Shown: in pieces, positions 16,405-62,256 of the stretch
Numbering within the stretch: position 1 is the first letter of the stretch
Layout: every line of letters begins with the position of its first letter
NCBI RefSeq assembly: GCF_009695545.1
Contig: NZ_VUNS01000016.1
Location: 62,001 to 126,000, forward strand
DNA: 64,000 bases
Origin: Victivallis lenta
GTDB taxonomy: Bacteria; Verrucomicrobiota; Lentisphaeria; Victivallales; Victivallaceae
Direction of reading: 5' to 3'
Notes under the pieces: model-generated
Database searches by the model: none
What the model saw: the letters and a program-made list of their open reading frames with translations, nothing else
What the model was told of the DNA's origin: nothing
Made by a program: the position numbers and the translations under genes

Positions 16405-16480
16405 CGGCGCGCACGTTTTTTTTCATATTCCGGAGGAGCGGACGCGACATCTGCCGATCTGCTGCTATATTATAACGAGT

Positions 16481-16518
16481 GCCGTATGCAAGTTCCCGTC
16501 AGGAAACTTGCATACGGC
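16481..16518 (+). promoter_or_regulatory. Perfect 14-bp inverted repeat in transporter leader
   Basis: GCCGTATGCAAGTT (16481-16494) and AACTTGCATACGGC (16505-16518) are exact inverse copies around a 10-nt loop. It lies 10 nt after a TATATTATAA -10-like element (16466-16475) and 43 nt before the transporter ATG, so it would be the 5' end of the mRNA or an operator at the start site. Confidence 0.6.
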
Positions 16519-16561
16519 GTCAATGATAAAAAAATTCATTCACGCATTCGGAGAATCCATC

Positions 16562-17572: not shown

Positions 17573-18328
17573 ATGTCCGGGCACAGTAAATGGGCAAACA
17601 TCAAGCACAAGAAAGAAGCCGCCGATAAGGTCAAAGGCAAGGCTTTCTCCCGAATCGCCAAGGAAATCATGGTCGCCGCCAAGATGGGCGGCTCCGATCC
17701 CGATGCGAATCCCCGGCTTCGTTCCGCTCTCGTCGCCGCCAAGGCGGTCAACATGCCGAACGCCAACATCGAACGCGCGATCAAGAAGGGCGCAGGCGAG
17801 CTCGGCGACGTGGTTTACGAGGAGATCGTCTACGAAGGGTATGCCGCCGGCGGCGTGGCCGTCATCGTCGAATGCCTGACCGACAACCGGAACCGTTCGA
17901 TCAGCGACGTCCGCATGGTTTTCGACCGCAACGGCGGCAATATGGCCGGTTCCGGCGCGGTTGCCCGCATGTTCAAGCGGCAGGCTCATTTCACGATTTC
18001 CGGCGACTGGGCCGACGAGGACAAGCTCATGGAAATCGTGCTTGACGCCGGTGCGAACGATCTCTCCGTCGAGGACGGCGTCGCCGAAATCTGGGCCGAT
18101 CCCGAGAATTTCGAAGCGCTGGTCAAACTCTTCGAGGAGAAGGGCATTCCGACCGAAGAAGCCGCGGTGGTCCGCAAGCCGGAAATGGTGACGGAGATCA
18201 CCGACGTCTCCACTGCGCGTCAGGTCATGCGCCTCGTGGAGCGTATGGAAGACCTCGACGACGTTCAGGAAGTGACCGCGAACTACGAGATCGCCGACGA
18301 AATCGCCGACCAGCTCGAGGAAGAGTAA
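17573..18328 (+). CDS. yebC: YebC/PmpR/TACO1-family protein
   Basis: A 251-residue member of the universal YebC family, which eases ribosome stalling on proline-rich sequences and has also been described as a DNA-binding regulator. It begins MSGHSKWANIKHKKEAADK and shows GKAFSRIAKEI, DPDANPRLRSAL, AKAVNMPNANIERAIKKG and YEGYAAGGVAVIVECLTDN, all diagnostic. GGAG lies 6 nt upstream of the chosen ATG; an in-frame ATG 12 nt earlier is less likely. In many genomes yebC neighbours ruvC; here they are 14 kb apart. It is a single-gene unit with its own promoter and terminator. Confidence 0.96.
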   Translation: MSGHSKWANIKHKKEAADKVKGKAFSRIAKEIMVAAKMGGSDPDANPRLRSALVAAKAVNMPNANIERAIKKGAGELGDVVYEEIVYEGYAAGGVAVIVECLTDNRNRSISDVRMVFDRNGGNMAGSGAVARMFKRQAHFTISGDWADEDKLMEIVLDAGANDLSVEDGVAEIWADPENFEALVKLFEEKGIPTEEAAVVRKPEMVTEITDVSTARQVMRLVERMEDLDDVQEVTANYEIADEIADQLEEE

Positions 18329-54284: not shown

Positions 54285-55067
54285 TTACGGGTAATAATAG
54301 TAGCCGTCGTGACGGATCCAGCAGTTCCAGGCGGCTTTGGACGGATAACTGTACGAGGTCCACGGCCCGGCGACCGCGCTGCCCTGCGTATTCATCAGCC
54401 ACGATGCGCCGGACTCTCCGACCACGGGGCTCCGCTGCGAGACGACGTGACCGTCGACAAATACGGCGTTGACTTCGGTGTATCCCTTGTGGGCCGGCCA
54501 GATGCACGGGTCGCTGGTCTGGTAATTCGCCGCGATCCGGTAGTTGCCGAGCGGTTCGAGCCCGGGATCGGAAAAACGGTTTTCGCGCGCCCCCTCCGCG
54601 GCCATGATCGTCCGGGAGGCCCGCGGGAACTTGCTGCTTTTCACGCCGCCGACATACTGGTGATTGATGCCGTAGTCCGGGTGCTGCCAGCCGGCGTCGC
54701 TCGCTTGCGCCAGCTGGTTCTGCCAGCTGGCCGGCTTCGTCCACCAGTCGTTGTAGAACGTGCTGCCGTTGCCCGGAATCCGTTTCCGGCTCGGACAGAT
54801 CATCGCCTTGTAGGGCAGGTAGCCGCCGCGCACCACGACGCCGGACCAGAAGAAGTTGCTGCCGTTGTAACTGGCCGGAACATAGGTGTCGTTCCAGTCC
54901 CCTGCATAGAGCTGGAGGGCGAGGCCGACCTGTTTGAGGTTGCTTTTACAGGAAGTTCCGCGGGCGTTTTCCCGCGCCTGGTTCAACGCCGGAAGCAGCA
55001 TGGAGGCGAGAATGGCGATGATTGCGATGACGACCAGGAGCTCGATCAAAGTGAAGCTTCTTCTCAT
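54285..55067 (-). CDS. Prepilin-like protein (module B)
   Basis: A 260-residue pseudopilin. The N-terminus [19 protein letters not shown], then [14 protein letters not shown], is nearly the same as in modules A and C; the residue before Phe is Ser. The globular part has Cys residues ([11 protein letters not shown] and MICPSRKR) and an H-X11-DG variant ([15 protein letters not shown]) near the C-terminus, followed by a Tyr-rich end (GYYYYP). GGGAGAAG lies upstream of the ATG. It is placed 39 bp after the LacI gene and 17 bp before the (alpha/alpha)6 gene. Confidence 0.88.
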
Positions 55068-55106
55068 TTTCTTCTCCCTGTACAGTTGCAGTTGGCGACA
55101 ATACCG

Positions 55107-56126
55107 CTAAAAAAAACGTTCCCGTAATCTCCTCTCGCAGCCGGTCCGGCTTTTGAATTCCGGTACGGTGACGAACTCCTCCTCTATGATGTTGCTCTGT
55201 TCCGGCGTGTTCTCCGGACGGTCGATCTGTTCAAGCAGAACCTCGACCGCCGTTGAAAGAATCCGCCGGAAATGGGAAAAAATAATGCCGGCCAGCAGCG
55301 GCTCGTTCAGTTCGATGACCGGGTCGTATTCGTCGAGGAAGGTGATCAGCCGCCGCTCGCCTCGGATCAGTCTCTGCAGCCGGAACAGATTATAGGCGCC
55401 GAGGTTGATGAAGGCGCAGTCGTCACGGCCGGCGACGCGGGCCAGGAGCCCGTCGCTGTAGCTGTCGGACTGGCTGCCGGCATCGGGCGGGACCAGTTCG
55501 AAATCCACTCCGTGCTTCCGGCACGCCTCCTCGAAAGCGGTGCAGTGTCCTTCCAGAACGATCGGGGCGATGATTCCGCAGATTCGCCTTGCGCCGGAAT
55601 TCCGGAGCAGAAGAACCGCCTGCTCCATCGCCCGGCGGCTGTCGGGCACGACGAAAGGCAGCCGCTCGTCCCGGCAGAGTTTGACGACCGGAAACTGTTC
55701 GCGCACGCATTGCCGGTAGACCTCCGTGTCGGGGGAGAGGGAGTCGAACTGGAAGATGATCCCGTCCACCTGCCGCTCCTTGAGGCTCAGGAACGCTTCG
55801 AGTTCCTTCGTCTTCGAGAAATGGGTCGAGGCGATCAGCAGATGGTTGCCGCGTTCAGCCGCCAGCGTCATGATTTCGGAGGCGAAGTTGGCCTGCCGGA
55901 CGATTTTAAGATCCGCGACGACAAGGCCGATGCTGCTGGTCCTGCCGCGGCTGAGCGCTTTGGCGATGTAGTTCGGCCGGTAATTGCACTCCCGCGCCGC
56001 CGCCCAGATCCGGTTCCGCGTCTCTTCGGAGAGCGTCCGGGCGACGGGATGCCGGTTCAGGCACAACGACACGGTTGCCGGCGACACCCGGGCGATTCCG
56101 GCAATGGTTTTCAGAGTTGGACGCAT
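55107..56126 (-). CDS. LacI-family transcriptional regulator (module B)
   Basis: A 339-residue regulator with a LacI helix-turn-helix (LKTIAGIARVSPATVSLCLN) and hinge (CNYRPNYIAKALSRGRTSSI), followed by the PBP1-type core: LVVADLKIVRQANFASEIM, RQVDGIIFQFDSLS, FPVVKLCRDERL, ARRICGIIAPIV, DCAFINLGAYNLF. The final sugar-domain part is shortened and ends in an Arg-rich tail. It is the promoter-proximal gene of module B, with an operator-like repeat between promoter and start, so autoregulation is likely. Confidence 0.9.
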   Translation of the reverse strand: MRPTLKTIAGIARVSPATVSLCLNRHPVARTLSEETRNRIWAAARECNYRPNYIAKALSRGRTSSIGLVVADLKIVRQANFASEIMTLAAERGNHLLIASTHFSKTKELEAFLSLKERQVDGIIFQFDSLSPDTEVYRQCVREQFPVVKLCRDERLPFVVPDSRRAMEQAVLLLRNSGARRICGIIAPIVLEGHCTAFEEACRKHGVDFELVPPDAGSQSDSYSDGLLARVAGRDDCAFINLGAYNLFRLQRLIRGERRLITFLDEYDPVIELNEPLLAGIIFSHFRRILSTAVEVLLEQIDRPENTPEQSNIIEEEFVTVPEFKSRTGCERRLRERFF

Positions 56127-56139
56127 GCGGAAATCCTGT

Positions 56140-56153
56140 CTAATGCGATTTAG
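56140..56153 (-). promoter_or_regulatory. Operator-like repeat before the module B LacI gene
   Basis: On the minus strand CTAAATCGCATTAG has CTAA/TTAG symmetry and sits between the -10 and the ATG at 56126. A perfect 12-bp palindrome GTATAATTATAC (56157-56168) overlaps the -10. Confidence 0.4.
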
Positions 56154-56161
56154 ATAGTATA

Positions 56162-56190
56162 ATTATACCAAATCGGGACAGGAAAGGCAA
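56162..56190 (-). promoter_or_regulatory. Promoter of module B
   Basis: On the minus strand TTGCCT, 17 bp, TATAAT, 36 nt before the LacI ATG. Confidence 0.65.
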
Positions 56191-56319
56191 GCGGAAAAGA
56201 AAAGAAAATCGAAAAAAACAGATCCTGCCGGTTTCATGCGTCGCGGGACCCGGAGAGGACGTCCTCCGCATAGGTGTTCATTTATTTTTGCAGTTTTAAA
56301 TGGAAGAGGGGCGTATTAT

Positions 56320-56532
56320 GTTCCGGGGAACGGAATATCTGCCGGTTTGAATAAAGAATCGGCAACAGAATCTGTTACAAACCTTCTGCCGCCGCGTGCA
56401 GGTTTCTTGCGTGAGGTTCTCCGGGAAAGTTCCGCAGGTTCCGCGCCTTGGAAAGCTGCCGGGCCGGAGGCTCTGAAGATCGCGGACGGCAGAGCCGTCC
56501 GCGATGAAAGAAACCTGTACGCGGCACTTTTT
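56320..56532 (+). ncRNA. Candidate structured RNA or inverted-repeat element in a 460-bp gap
   Basis: The gap 56127-56586 between modules B and C holds no credible gene but much base-pairing. From left to right: GTTCC-GG-GGAAC (56320-56331); GGTTTG/CAAACC (56344-56349, 56378-56383) enclosing AACAGA-A-TCTGTT (56364-56376); an 18-bp inverted repeat with one mismatch (56391-56408 against 56508-56525); inside it CTCCGG/CCGGAG and a perfect 12-bp hairpin with an AGA loop (56479-56505). The outer repeat is followed by TTTTT at 56528-56532, and TATTAT at 56314 could be a -10. This could be an sRNA of about 200 nt, a 3' structure of the glycosidase mRNA on the other strand, or a MITE-like element. 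Confidence 0.35.
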
Positions 56533-56586
56533 CGTTTAACGCCTGTGGACGTTCCTCTCCCCCTTGGGATGCGGCGGGATTGTCGT

Positions 56587-59500
56587 TCACTCCATGGCGA
56601 CCGCGCCGCCGCCTCCGGCGGACTCTTCGGCCGGCTTGTCGAATTCGGGCGGATTCACGACGAGCGTGCCGGGCTGATCGCCTTTCACGAATTCGAAGTT
56701 GAAGCCGAGCAGCTTGACGGGGTAGTCGAGCTTTTTATCGTTGTTTCCGCCGTAGACGATGAGATTCCTGCCCTGCGGAATGCGGGTCAGGTCGAAACGC
56801 ATCAGGCGCGTTTCGCCTTCCGCCGGTTTGATGTTCTCCTTCAGTTGGAAGGTTTCTCCCTTCGCATCCTGGACCAGGAAGCTGACCGAATGGACGGCGG
56901 CTTTTTCGGGACGGAAGCTGATTTCGACATTCTTCGGCCAGCTTGCGGCGTCGCGGGCGACGACCGGCAGCCGGGTGGAGAAGAGCGATGCGTAAGCGCG
57001 GCCGCCCGGTGTCCGGCTCACGACAAGCTCGGACTCATTTTTCCCTTTGCCGAGCGTGTAGCCTTCGCCGTAGACCGTCCACGCGCCGGGTTCCCAGCGG
57101 GTCAGCGGCCGGGCGCGTTCCCACTCCCGGACCAGAATCGATCCGTCCGCCGCCGCGCCGGGCTTCAGCTCGAAGTTGAATCCGAGCAGCCGGACCGGAA
57201 AATCGACTTTGCCGTCGCCGCCCTTGTGGACGATCACTCCCTTCCGGAGAATTCCCGAGGCGTCGAAGCGCAATAAGCTCCACTCCTTCTCCGGCGGCGC
57301 GATATTCTGCTTGAGCTGGAAAATTTCTCCGCTGCGGTCCATGAAAAGAAGGTTGACCGCGTGAATCATCGCGCCGTCGGGACGGACCGGCAATATGACG
57401 TCGGTCTCGAGCCCCGCCGCATTTTCGGCGAAGAGCTTCGGCGTGCGCAGATAGAAACTGGCAAACGGAGCGCGGTCCTTCTCCCAGCTGATCCGGATTC
57501 GGGCGCCGTCCGCATCGGAGGCGAGTTTGAATCCCTTTGCGTAGGTGATCCAGTCGGCCAGCTTCAGCTTCTTCGTTTCGGTGCGGAACACGACCGTATC
57601 CTGAAACTCCACGCCCGGTTCCGTTTCGAAAAACGCGTCCAGATAGAAGAGCTGCCCCGGCTTCGCGCCGCGCGGCACCGGAATTTTGAATTCCGCCTCG
57701 CCCATGCCGTCGGCGGGGAGGTCGAGTTTCACCACGGAGGGCTCGACTTTCCACGCCCACTCGCGCCAGTTGCTCTTCGGCACGAGCCGGAGGCTGCCGG
57801 AGAGCGGTTCACCTTTCAGGTTGTAAACGTGGACCTTCACGCTTTCCGCCGTCCCTGCCGCGAGTTCCGGAACCGTACCGCTCATCAGGTCGCAGGCGCG
57901 CGTTTTCTGCTTCGGCAGGATTTTCACTTTTGCGCGCGGCAGGTTCAGCGGCGGAACCGCATGCGCCGTCGATACCGGTTCGAGTTCGGGCTTCAGCCTG
58001 CCGCGGACGAAAACCGGATATTCACTGACCGGAATCTCGACAGAGCCGTTCTTCACATCCAGCTTCGATGCGCCGCCGGAGAGATTGAAGAGCTCGACGG
58101 AGCCGCCCTCCGCCGGCAATGCGACCGGCTGCGGAGCCCTGACCATGTCGAAGAACGGGATTTTGAACTGATCGTAGCCGTAGGGGTCGTTGCGCCAGAG
58201 CGTGACGACGTCGCGCCCTTCCGCGTCCCGGAAGGCCAGCCCGGCGATTTCGCCGGATTTCAGCGAGTGGCCTTTCACGAAACCGCTGAATTTTGCTTTG
58301 CCGAGCAGTTTCGCCGTGGCCCGGAAGCTTGCGGCCCCCGGTTTCGGCCGTCCGTAACGGTCGAGCATGCCGAACTCTTCCTCGAGCGAATCGACCGGAA
58401 CGTCGCGGAAGTTGTACGGGATCACCTTTGCCGCACCGAACGCAAGGCCGCCGGCCATGACCTTGGGCTGGTGGATCGCCTGGTAGCGCCGGACCTCGTC
58501 GAGCGTCCGCACCGGAATCATATGCATCGAACTGTAAGTGCAGCCGCCGATTTCGGTCAGCCAGACCGGTTTCTCCGGGATTCCGGCGGCGTTCTTCCAG
58601 CCGTTCATTTCGCGCATCTTTCCGGCGATGCCCCAGAACATCGGCACATAGAAGCCGTAGATATGGCTGGCGATCGAATCGCAGAAGGCCGCTCCGCCGG
58701 TCCGGAACACGGGCGCATGGATTGCATTCAGGTCCCCGGCCATGACATTGCAGTCCGGATCGGCCAGCTTGGCGGCCTTGTATCCGGCCTTCAGCATCTG
58801 GGCGTAATCTTCCGGCAGGACCTTCCAGTAAGTCGGTTCGTTGCCGAACTCCCAGTCGCGCACGACATCCTTATGGGCCGAGATCAGGTTGTAGACCTGC
58901 TCTGCATACCAGGCGTAATCGGCCGGAATGCCGTGGGCGGCCCACTTCCGGACCAGTTCAGGATGCCCGGCCCGGTTTTTCGCAAGACCGTCATAATCGC
59001 TGACGCCCGAACCGGTGATGATCGCCAGCGGGTTCAGCCCGGCCGCCCGGATGCGGCGCAGCACGCTCTGGGAGCCGCCGATGTCATTGTAACCGACATC
59101 GACACGGACGTTGCTGACGCCGAGACGGCGCAGCAGGTCGAAATCGAACTCCTCGAAGCTGTAGCGGCGTTCGCGGCGTGTGATGTGGCAGGTGAAGCCG
59201 AAGTTTCCCTCCGCGCCGTTGTCGGCGGCGTCGCGCATGACGGCGAGCGGAATGACGACGCTCCCGCCGTTGAATGAAGCGTCCTCCGGCGTGACGCGCA
59301 GCTCGTAGTAACCGTCCGCCGCCGGAAGTTCGATCGGCAGTTCGGTCACTCCGGGTTTCAGCTGCGGTTCGACCTGCTTGTTCCAGACCGGCCGGTTCGC
59401 AAAATCGCGCAGCTCGAGCCGGAAAACCGATTTGTGCGCCGGGGCGTCGGAACGGATCCGCAGCTTCGCCGGTTCCGCATCGTCGAAAAAGAAGTTGTTG

Positions 59501-60318
59501 CGCCGGTTCAGGCGGTCGCCGATCTGCAGCGGAGCCGTGGCGGCGACGCGGAAGCCGGCCGTTTCCCGCCCCTCGTACTCCGGCTGCTGCCAGAGGCGCG
59601 CGGTGTTCAGGCTGGCCGCGTCCGTTGCCTTGTCGTCGGCGCCGAGCACGAACGGGGCGCCCGCGTAAAATTTGTTCTCCATGTGCTCCCGGAGCCCGGA
59701 AGCATGTTTCACGATGCCGTAGCGGGACGGCTCGCTCCGGGTTTCCGCGTTCAATTCGCGGAATTTCCCATCGCCGTCATACCAGCCGGCCTTGAAGAAT
59801 TCGTGCATGTCGGGCAGAACATAGACCCGCGCCGCATCCGGGAAGGTCAGATCGCGGTAGCCGACGATCGCTTCGAACGTCCTGCCGTTTTCGCGCGGCT
59901 TCTCCGCGATCGTGTAGGCGCCCTGCGCGGCATCTCCGGTCGTCAGCCAGTTGCAGTAGCGGGCCGCGTTGACCCGGCTCACGAAGTTCACGCCGTCCTC
60001 CTCCCGGCCCGGCGCGGGGGCATACTTCCAGGCGCCTTCGCCGCCGGAGCGCACGATTTTCATGCGTTCGTCGAACAGCCGGTGCGGATCGGATTCCGCG
60101 GCGCAGGCGTTCAGAAACTCCGCATATTCCGCATTCGACACCTCGGATCTGCCGATCCGGTACGGATAGGCGACGCCTCCGCGCGGATACGGGTTCGGCA
60201 CCTCGTGAAAATAGACCTTTTTGCCCGGATTCCCGGCATCGCCGACCATGACGAGCTCGGGGGCGGCGGCCAGGGAGAATCCGGCCAGAAGGCCGCACAG
60301 CAGCAGAGTGTGTTTCAT
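56587..60318 (-). CDS. FGE-like domain fused to a clan GH-A glycosidase (module C)
   Basis: A 1243-residue exported protein. After the signal peptide (LLLCGLLAGFSLAAA), residues 20-265 form a formylglycine-generating-enzyme/sulfatase-modifying-factor-like domain (YRIGRSEVSNAEYAEFLNAC, VSRVNAARYCNWLTTG, VLPDMHEFFKAGWYD, RETAGFRVAA). Residues about 370-680 are a TIM barrel with Glu494 in FGNEPTYWKV (acid/base) and Glu589 in VWLTEIGGC (nucleophile). The C-terminal 300 residues contain two copies of a beta-sandwich sharing FQLKxNIxPxE and FPVRLLGFNFE, probably carbohydrate-binding. The start ATG 60318 has GAGGAGCC upstream. It is the last gene of module C. Confidence 0.82.
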   Translation of the reverse strand: MKHTLLLCGLLAGFSLAAAPELVMVGDAGNPGKKVYFHEVPNPYPRGGVAYPYRIGRSEVSNAEYAEFLNACAAESDPHRLFDERMKIVRSGGEGAWKYAPAPGREEDGVNFVSRVNAARYCNWLTTGDAAQGAYTIAEKPRENGRTFEAIVGYRDLTFPDAARVYVLPDMHEFFKAGWYDGDGKFRELNAETRSEPSRYGIVKHASGLREHMENKFYAGAPFVLGADDKATDAASLNTARLWQQPEYEGRETAGFRVAATAPLQIGDRLNRRNNFFFDDAEPAKLRIRSDAPAHKSVFRLELRDFANRPVWNKQVEPQLKPGVTELPIELPAADGYYELRVTPEDASFNGGSVVIPLAVMRDAADNGAEGNFGFTCHITRRERRYSFEEFDFDLLRRLGVSNVRVDVGYNDIGGSQSVLRRIRAAGLNPLAIITGSGVSDYDGLAKNRAGHPELVRKWAAHGIPADYAWYAEQVYNLISAHKDVVRDWEFGNEPTYWKVLPEDYAQMLKAGYKAAKLADPDCNVMAGDLNAIHAPVFRTGGAAFCDSIASHIYGFYVPMFWGIAGKMREMNGWKNAAGIPEKPVWLTEIGGCTYSSMHMIPVRTLDEVRRYQAIHQPKVMAGGLAFGAAKVIPYNFRDVPVDSLEEEFGMLDRYGRPKPGAASFRATAKLLGKAKFSGFVKGHSLKSGEIAGLAFRDAEGRDVVTLWRNDPYGYDQFKIPFFDMVRAPQPVALPAEGGSVELFNLSGGASKLDVKNGSVEIPVSEYPVFVRGRLKPELEPVSTAHAVPPLNLPRAKVKILPKQKTRACDLMSGTVPELAAGTAESVKVHVYNLKGEPLSGSLRLVPKSNWREWAWKVEPSVVKLDLPADGMGEAEFKIPVPRGAKPGQLFYLDAFFETEPGVEFQDTVVFRTETKKLKLADWITYAKGFKLASDADGARIRISWEKDRAPFASFYLRTPKLFAENAAGLETDVILPVRPDGAMIHAVNLLFMDRSGEIFQLKQNIAPPEKEWSLLRFDASGILRKGVIVHKGGDGKVDFPVRLLGFNFELKPGAAADGSILVREWERARPLTRWEPGAWTVYGEGYTLGKGKNESELVVSRTPGGRAYASLFSTRLPVVARDAASWPKNVEISFRPEKAAVHSVSFLVQDAKGETFQLKENIKPAEGETRLMRFDLTRIPQGRNLIVYGGNNDKKLDYPVKLLGFNFEFVKGDQPGTLVVNPPEFDKPAEESAGGGGAVAME

Positions 60319-60328
60319 CGGCGGCTCC

Positions 60329-61084
<756 letters not shown>

Positions 61085-61116
61085 GATGGTCCCCCGTTTT
61101 GTAGTGGTGAGCTTTT

Positions 61117-62256
61117 TCATTCGGAAAACTGTGGTGCGTCCATGCCGTTTTTCGTCAAATCCTTCACGCTTTCGCGTTCGATCAGATGTTGCGGAAAAAA
61201 GAGGTTGTGGTTCTTCGGCTTGAGTTTGCCGAGCACGATATCGACGGCGGTGCAGCCGAGCTTTTCGTAATCCATGGTCACGACGGTGAGCCCGGGCGTC
61301 AGATAGCGGTACAGATCGCGTTCGCCTTCGCCGATCACGCTGATCCGGTCCGGAACCGGCAGCCCGGCCTCTTTCAGCGTCTTGAGGGTGACCAGGGCAC
61401 CGCTCGACGATTTGTAGATCAGTGCGGTCAGGCCGAGCTTTTTGATCTGGTCGAGGTTGTTTTCCGTCAGCTGCACCGCCGCATCGAGCGAGCTCTCCCA
61501 GGAGCGGATTGTCGAACTGAAAATCCGCTCCGGCCCGAATTCGATTCCCTCGCGCTTCATTGCCGCAATCAGGGTTTTTCGGTACAGGTCGTTGTACTCG
61601 CTGCGCGGTTCGTTCCGGACGAAGCCGATCCGGCGGTGTCCCTTTCTCAGCAGGACTTCAACGGTTTTTTCGGCGCAGTTGACGGCGTCGGGGGAGAGGA
61701 TGTAAACGTTGTCCGGCAGGTAGTTCGCATAAAAATACATGCTGTCGACGACCACGATCGTCATCGGCAGGCTGCCGAGAGCCTCAAGCCGTTCGGCATC
61801 CATCCGGTCGGCGCCGACCAGCAGGATCAGGCCGGAGCAGTCGGATTGCGCCTTGACGAATTCGATCAGCGATTCGGTCGAGGTGTCCGGATAGATTTTG
61901 CAGTCGACCATATTACAGCCCTGAAGCCGGGAATAGTGCGCGATCGTGTGCACCATCTTCCAGGTGCTTTCATCCGGATAATCATTGTAGGCGAAGAGAA
62001 GGTTGCGGACTCCGGCGGCTTTCCCCTGCAGCCGTGCCACGGTTCTATGCTTGCCGGCGGCGACGATGCCGGAGCCCTGCCGGCGGACGATCACGCCGTC
62101 GTTTTCAAGTTCGGAGAGCGCCCGGTTCACGGTGGCGAGCGAGACATTGAACTGGTTCATCAGCTCGCGGACCGTCGGCATCCGCATCGCGGACTCCGGT
62201 TTGACCGCCACAGCCTCCAGATAGGATTTGACTTTCAGATATTTCAGCGGGGGCAT
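61117..62256 (-). CDS. GntR-HTH/LacI-type sensor regulator (module C)
   Basis: A 379-residue hybrid regulator: a GntR-like winged helix in residues 1-75 ([40 protein letters not shown]) joined to a PBP1-type ligand domain ([77 protein letters not shown]). It is the same design as the module A regulator, though the ligand domains differ. It is the first gene of module C, with a consensus-like promoter and a motif shared with module A. Confidence 0.88.

Follow-up and report, generated by a model that had tools for sequence, protein, structure and literature searches.

Miniature inverted-repeat elements (MITEs) derived from insertion sequences of the IS982 family have been described in Cardinium cOegibbosus. 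MITECca01 of that bacterium (PMC9769881) was derived from ISCca4, measures about 240 bp, is present in 169 mostly intergenic copies, and is held to move in trans. Given this precedent, the family reported here from Victivallis lenta is not new in kind. It resembles MITECca01 in being short and non-coding, in carrying the ends of a resident IS982-family element, and in having many copies that lie mostly between genes. It differs in sequence, in the phylum of its host, and in consisting of about 14 old, diverged loci. MITECca01 keeps short stretches of its parent inside its ends, whereas none were seen in the V. lenta family, whose inside is palindromic.

A complete insertion sequence with the same ends occurs in a Victivallaceae genome (L194:6693-7734). 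It spans 1,042 bp with TATTTA on both sides, and its 295-aa ORF matches the IS982 transposase model NF033520 (E 5.3e-66) and contains the DDE domain PF13612. The V. lenta family shares the 18-bp ends and 6-bp duplication of this insertion sequence, but the element studied here encodes no transposase. MITE families of STD1_2, a Victivallaceae MAG, and of V. vadensis (G007), a member of the same genus, are similar in having the same ends, self-complementary insides and, mostly, 6-7-bp duplications, although by eye their insides look unrelated to that of the V. lenta family. The STD1_2 copies are young, with a mean identity of 0.894 and a minimum of 0.511 in 39 sampled pairs, whereas the V. lenta family is old, as six of its copies have a mean pairwise identity of 62% (0.62; 15 pairs). 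Our literature search found no paper treating miniature inverted-repeat elements together with Victivallis.

The element lies in a 64,000-nucleotide stretch of V. lenta DNA, here called the window, in a segment that the sequence-only reading had singled out as a strong candidate for either a non-coding RNA or a MITE. The second half of that proposal stood: the element is short and lacks a transposase gene, it has terminal inverted repeats in common with dispersed copies, a parental IS982-family element with identical ends resides in the genome, and the family shows target duplications. We conclude that it is very probably the fossil of a MITE that an IS982 transposase once moved in trans; such movement is suggested because the element carries no gene, while a transposase whose ends correspond is at hand. 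A strong RNA candidate is thus explained away and its cause named: the element is not evidence of a new RNA, and the family is new while its kind is known from bacteria.

Structure and setting of the element

The segment at 56320-56532 is highly self-complementary, with a predicted fold of -103.5 kcal/mol (z -6.28) that none of 200 shuffled sequences equalled. Its outer inverted repeat has 18-nt arms (56391-56408 and 56508-56525, spaced 99 nt) that are complementary at 17 of 18 positions (94%), the single mismatch being G-T, and encloses an inner hairpin (56479-56490 and 56494-56505) paired at 12 of 12 positions, confirming the first description. A listing for the window gave 50 inverted repeats; in its 25 longest entries, only two with arms of at least 17 nt reach 94% complementarity, namely this one and another at 16481-16518, which turned out to belong to the same family. 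The segment had been taken for one 213-bp element, but the true unit, which we designate copy A, is 139 bp long (56389-56527, no strand assigned), is colinear with copies on contigs C1, C3, C7 and C20, and folds strongly by itself on both strands (z -6.64 on the + strand and -5.31 on the - strand). The upstream part (56320-56388), with its two extra palindromes, does fold (z -3.63), but these two small hairpins (56320-56364) lie outside the element and are single-copy, no second copy above chance being found in the V. lenta genome. Likewise, the TTTTT thought to terminate the element is present (56528-56532) but is flanking DNA, and the -10-like TATTAT placed at its left edge exists at 56314-56319, just outside that edge.

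The left terminal inverted repeat of copy A, CCGCCGCGTGCAGGTTTC (56389-56406, + strand), matches the IS982 end ACGCCGTGTGCAAGTTTT at 14 of 18 positions, and the right one, GTGCCGCGTACAGGTTTC (56510-56527, - strand), matches it at 12 of 18. The perfect 12-bp hairpin (56479-56505) belongs to the right module of the family. Internally, copy A is about 40 bp shorter than copies C and J, the result of a deletion. CTTCTG on its left (56383-56388) and TTTTTC on its right (56528-56533, including the T-run) occupy the two positions of a putative, decayed 6-bp target duplication.

Copy A sits in a gap between two ORFs. A single ORF crosses it (346 aa, + strand) and continues antisense into a gene for a 1265-aa protein. 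That gene, the upstream neighbour (56587-60384, - strand), ends 59 bases from copy A, and its product has no Pfam match. The downstream neighbour encodes a LacI-type regulator (55107-56126, - strand), and a promoter-like site between it and copy A (56190-56162, - strand) would serve the lacI-type gene. The surrounding region (54285-62256) shows a recurring arrangement in which a DUF1559 pseudopilin-like protein (54285-55067 and 60329-61120) lies beside a regulator, LacI-type in one case (55107-56126) and GntR-type in the other (61117-62256), with the 1265-aa protein in between.

Copies, ends and target duplications

A first search of the region against its own genome found one other clear place, C4:121640-121701, with 84% identity over 62 bp. 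The segment common to this locus and the window includes the motif GCCGYRTGCARGTTTC, which is also an arm of the inverted repeat at 16481-16518. With at most one mismatch, the end motif GCCGNRTRCARGTTTC occurs 24 times in the V. lenta genome, versus 2 for the backwards control, and 55 times, versus 0, in V. vadensis. A longer end motif at three mismatches was too loose and was hardly enriched (74 versus 58 for the control in the V. lenta genome). Two ends were recognized in copies C (C1:34134), F (C3:93947), J (C20, near 17671-17843), M (C7:159564) and Q (C8:78792), which, together with copy A, share a colinear layout, in which a left module containing GAGGTT..CCGGGAAA..TCCGC and a hairpin-bearing right module lie between the ends. 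Other copies are reduced. Copy B, the C4 locus of the first search, has a poor left end and retains the right module only, copy D (C14:69767) has two ends and hardly anything besides, and copy E (window 16479-16520, 42 bp, no strand assigned) consists of two ends and a 6-nt loop. Copy E lies shortly before an apparent + strand start codon.

A sequence-only model was built from an alignment of copies A, B, C, F, J and M, which are colinear in whole or in part. At E <= 0.001 it gave 13 matches in the V. lenta genome, representing 12 loci because Q accounts for two matches, and six of these loci are independent of the model; copy A, itself one of the model sequences, matched with 94.6 bits (E 1.7e-26). 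With copies D and E the family amounts to about 14 diverged loci, dispersed over many contigs and ranging from 42 to 217 bp in size. Copies may have been missed, because the search with this model (R1) went on to score just 150 of the 4,289 candidates that its first look at the V. lenta genome yielded. The sequence-only reading had proposed a search for further copies and had held that it would be refuted by a unique, non-conserved sequence together with the lack of a transcript on either strand; since such copies were found, the element is not unique, and that part of the refuting condition fails. Beyond V. lenta, the model had no matches at the same threshold in the nine other genomes searched, and a BLAST search of the region against 61 genomes, its own included, returned elsewhere only chance-level pieces (best E 0.007). 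No close copy of the family's inside was thus found in relatives by either method, and the BLAST result can be attributed to the divergence of the family and to its genome-specific inside. The region had no match in phage records.

An IS982-family insertion sequence resident in the genome has the family ends, AYGCCGTGTGCAAGTTTY, as its terminal inverted repeats. The insertion-sequence end GCCGTGTGCAAGTTTT is present at 5 of the 24 motif sites, four of which are less than 0.5 kb from a contig end, the kind of place at which assemblies break on repeats. Behind one of these ends an ORF runs off the contig, and its 116 residues match NF033520 (E 1.4e-11), a match to a partial transposase that falls below the curated cut-off of the model. 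The same 18 bases occur at the opposite end of the insertion sequence, both here and in V. vadensis. The V. lenta assembly has the two IS982 ends and a 116-aa piece of the transposase; the middle is not assembled, and no complete transposase is present in the assembly. The transposase of the complete Victivallaceae insertion sequence is 62% identical to the fragment, and relatives of the transposase were found in 10 of 61 genomes searched, often as fragments. No similarity was seen between the inside of the family and that of the IS982 element.

When 84,980 species genomes were scanned for ACGCCGTGTGCAAGTTTY, 84 stretches turned up. Of the 80 that were listed, 72 belong to records whose names contain Victivallis, Victivallaceae, Victivallales or Lentisphaer-, while 8 are from other phyla. 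The IS982 end has been kept over much of Lentisphaerota, where several MITE families carry it, and an inverted pair of GCCGYRTGCARGTTTY marks the footprint of a mobile element, to be expected again in other Victivallis-type genome stretches. Inverted pairs of the 18-bp end were also observed in an Omnitrophica record (L191:5396-5528, 133 bp) and in a Gemmataceae record (L166:128-298, 171 bp), both without an exact target duplication; transfer between phyla, binning error or chance are possible explanations for these two loci.

Target duplications were examined at three levels. Among the scan loci, 24 inverted end pairs lie no more than 1.3 kb apart, 16 of them with an exact 6-7-bp direct repeat directly outside and 8 without. 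In V. vadensis, four pairs were inspected: three are flanked by 6-bp repeats without a mismatch (ATATTC, CAATAC and GGATTC), and the fourth, in L102, agrees at 3 of 6 positions. In V. lenta, agreement is complete in copy J (GATTTC, 6/6), reaches 5/6 in copy C and 4/6 in each of copies D, E, F and Q, and is weakest in copies A (3/6), M (2/6) and B (1/6). Taken alone, the agreement at copy A cannot be told apart from chance and would not have revealed the duplication. Pooled over the nine copies, 33 of 54 positions are equal, compared with a permutation mean of 19.7, and only 190 of 362,880 permutations reached as high a value; shifting the right flank by 1-3 bases lowered the agreement to 12-21 of 54. 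When copies B and M were left out, the remaining seven (A, C, D, E, F, J and Q) gave 30 of 42 (1 of 5,040 permutations), but we rely on the nine-copy count. The one-ended copies at C14:100357, C16:37972, C16:44949, C2:425645 and C5:156761 stand outside these counts. The family has therefore moved by transposition, duplicating 6 bp of target. No empty site was found for copy A, as homologues of the 1265-aa gene have different neighbours and no conserved neighbourhood.

These observations suggest how copy A may have arisen. The 18-nt ends would be the sites at which the IS982 transposase binds and cuts, and the inside would need only to be short, so that an element composed of AYGCCGTGTGCAAGTTTY ends and a palindromic, non-coding inside, of which the 12-bp hairpin is part, could have been recognized and moved by a transposase of the IS982 family that another locus of the genome supplied. 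It would have inserted between the 1265-aa gene and the lacI-type gene with duplication of 6 bp of target, and divergence and the loss of some 40 bases from its interior would have followed. Because no more than 14 and 12 of the 18 positions in its two ends still agree with the present insertion sequence, copy A is presumably dead, and it probably has no function of its own now.

Other readings of the fold

The strength of the + strand fold (z -6.64) and the T-run immediately after the outer stem would also suit a + strand transcript that stops at TTTTT, either a structured small RNA or one that acts in cis. The window has no Rfam match at gathering scores, however, and in a consensus scan of 56000-56700 the + strand gave no promoter-like site, the single match being the - strand site at 56190-56162. 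The hairpin is whole in copy A and aligned over 26 of 27 columns in copy B, and it has decayed in the other seven aligned copies without compensatory change: taken over all nine, the 12-bp stem has 76.4% of its cells paired, compared with 76.2% when partners are shuffled, and shows no surplus of double changes. The fold is accounted for by transposon ends together with a palindromic inside, and the T-run, which is flanking DNA, is missing at copy B. Lacking covariation, an Rfam match and a + strand promoter-like site, the small-RNA half of the original proposal is unsupported, and we regard it as very unlikely. The retention of the hairpin in copies A and B, alone among the nine, raises a different idea, that a MITE copy was later co-opted as a 3'-end structure (a terminator or mRNA-end protector), in copy A that of the 1265-aa gene on the - strand. 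Each of the two lies close behind a gene on the - strand, 59 bases past its stop codon in the case of A and 67 in that of B, with the hairpin module on the gene side. Nevertheless, the hairpin lacks a U-run after it on the - strand and is not reported by the terminator scan, and two copies are few. We consider the case for such later use of A and B to be weak, and the co-option itself improbable.

Short, palindromic, intergenic and repeated sequences also bring to mind REP-type palindromes moved by a Y1 (RAYT) transposase, or integron attC sites. Target duplications are not expected of REP/RAYT systems, whereas the family has duplications of 6-7 bp, and in relatives every base of its ends is identical to those of a DDE-type IS982 element. 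An attC site has the core pair GTTRRRY / RYYYAAC, which is absent from the ends when these are read directly, and the copies are scattered over many contigs. An origin of either type is scarcely credible, and the fossil MITE remains our preferred explanation.

Palindromes and arrays in Victivallis

The V. vadensis genome contains nested palindromes of 700-850 bp (L276-L285 and L102:287-1131), in which hairpins lie within hairpins around GGGATTTCGC...GCGAAATCCC. BLAST pieces of these palindromes number 153 in V. vadensis, 8 in V. lenta and 0 in seven other genomes of the genus. In V. vadensis some carry IS982 ends and most do not, so that a palindromic inside occurs there both with and without the ends. 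It is conceivable, if on balance doubtful, that a single IS982 transposase lineage makes MITEs out of local hairpin repeats time and again, by placing its own ends on either side of them. Each genome (V. lenta, V. vadensis and STD1_2) would then have an unrelated palindromic inside between identical ends, perhaps also the single Omnitrophica and Gemmataceae loci, with the 18-bp end preserved letter for letter over much of Lentisphaerota.

The outer hairpin of the nested palindromes was also observed standing alone (L094). Ten V. vadensis copies were read with their flanks, and most start about 20 bases or less from an apparent stop codon, as judged by eye with ORFs not called; by the same reading, the palindromes possibly lie between convergent genes. 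A narrow literature search found no paper on nested palindromes between convergent genes, and these palindromes may be worth more than the MITE finding itself. Apparently non-coding tandem arrays were observed in V. lenta (L286-L300), for example at C16:29.8-31.1 kb, C8:160.4-161.7 kb and C20:95.1-96.1 kb. In array L295 the units are about 256-268 bp long with a spacing of 268-283 bp, and array L299 has 300-bp units at 536 and 552. The tandem arrays contain a palindrome of about 51 bp in common with the V. vadensis palindromes.
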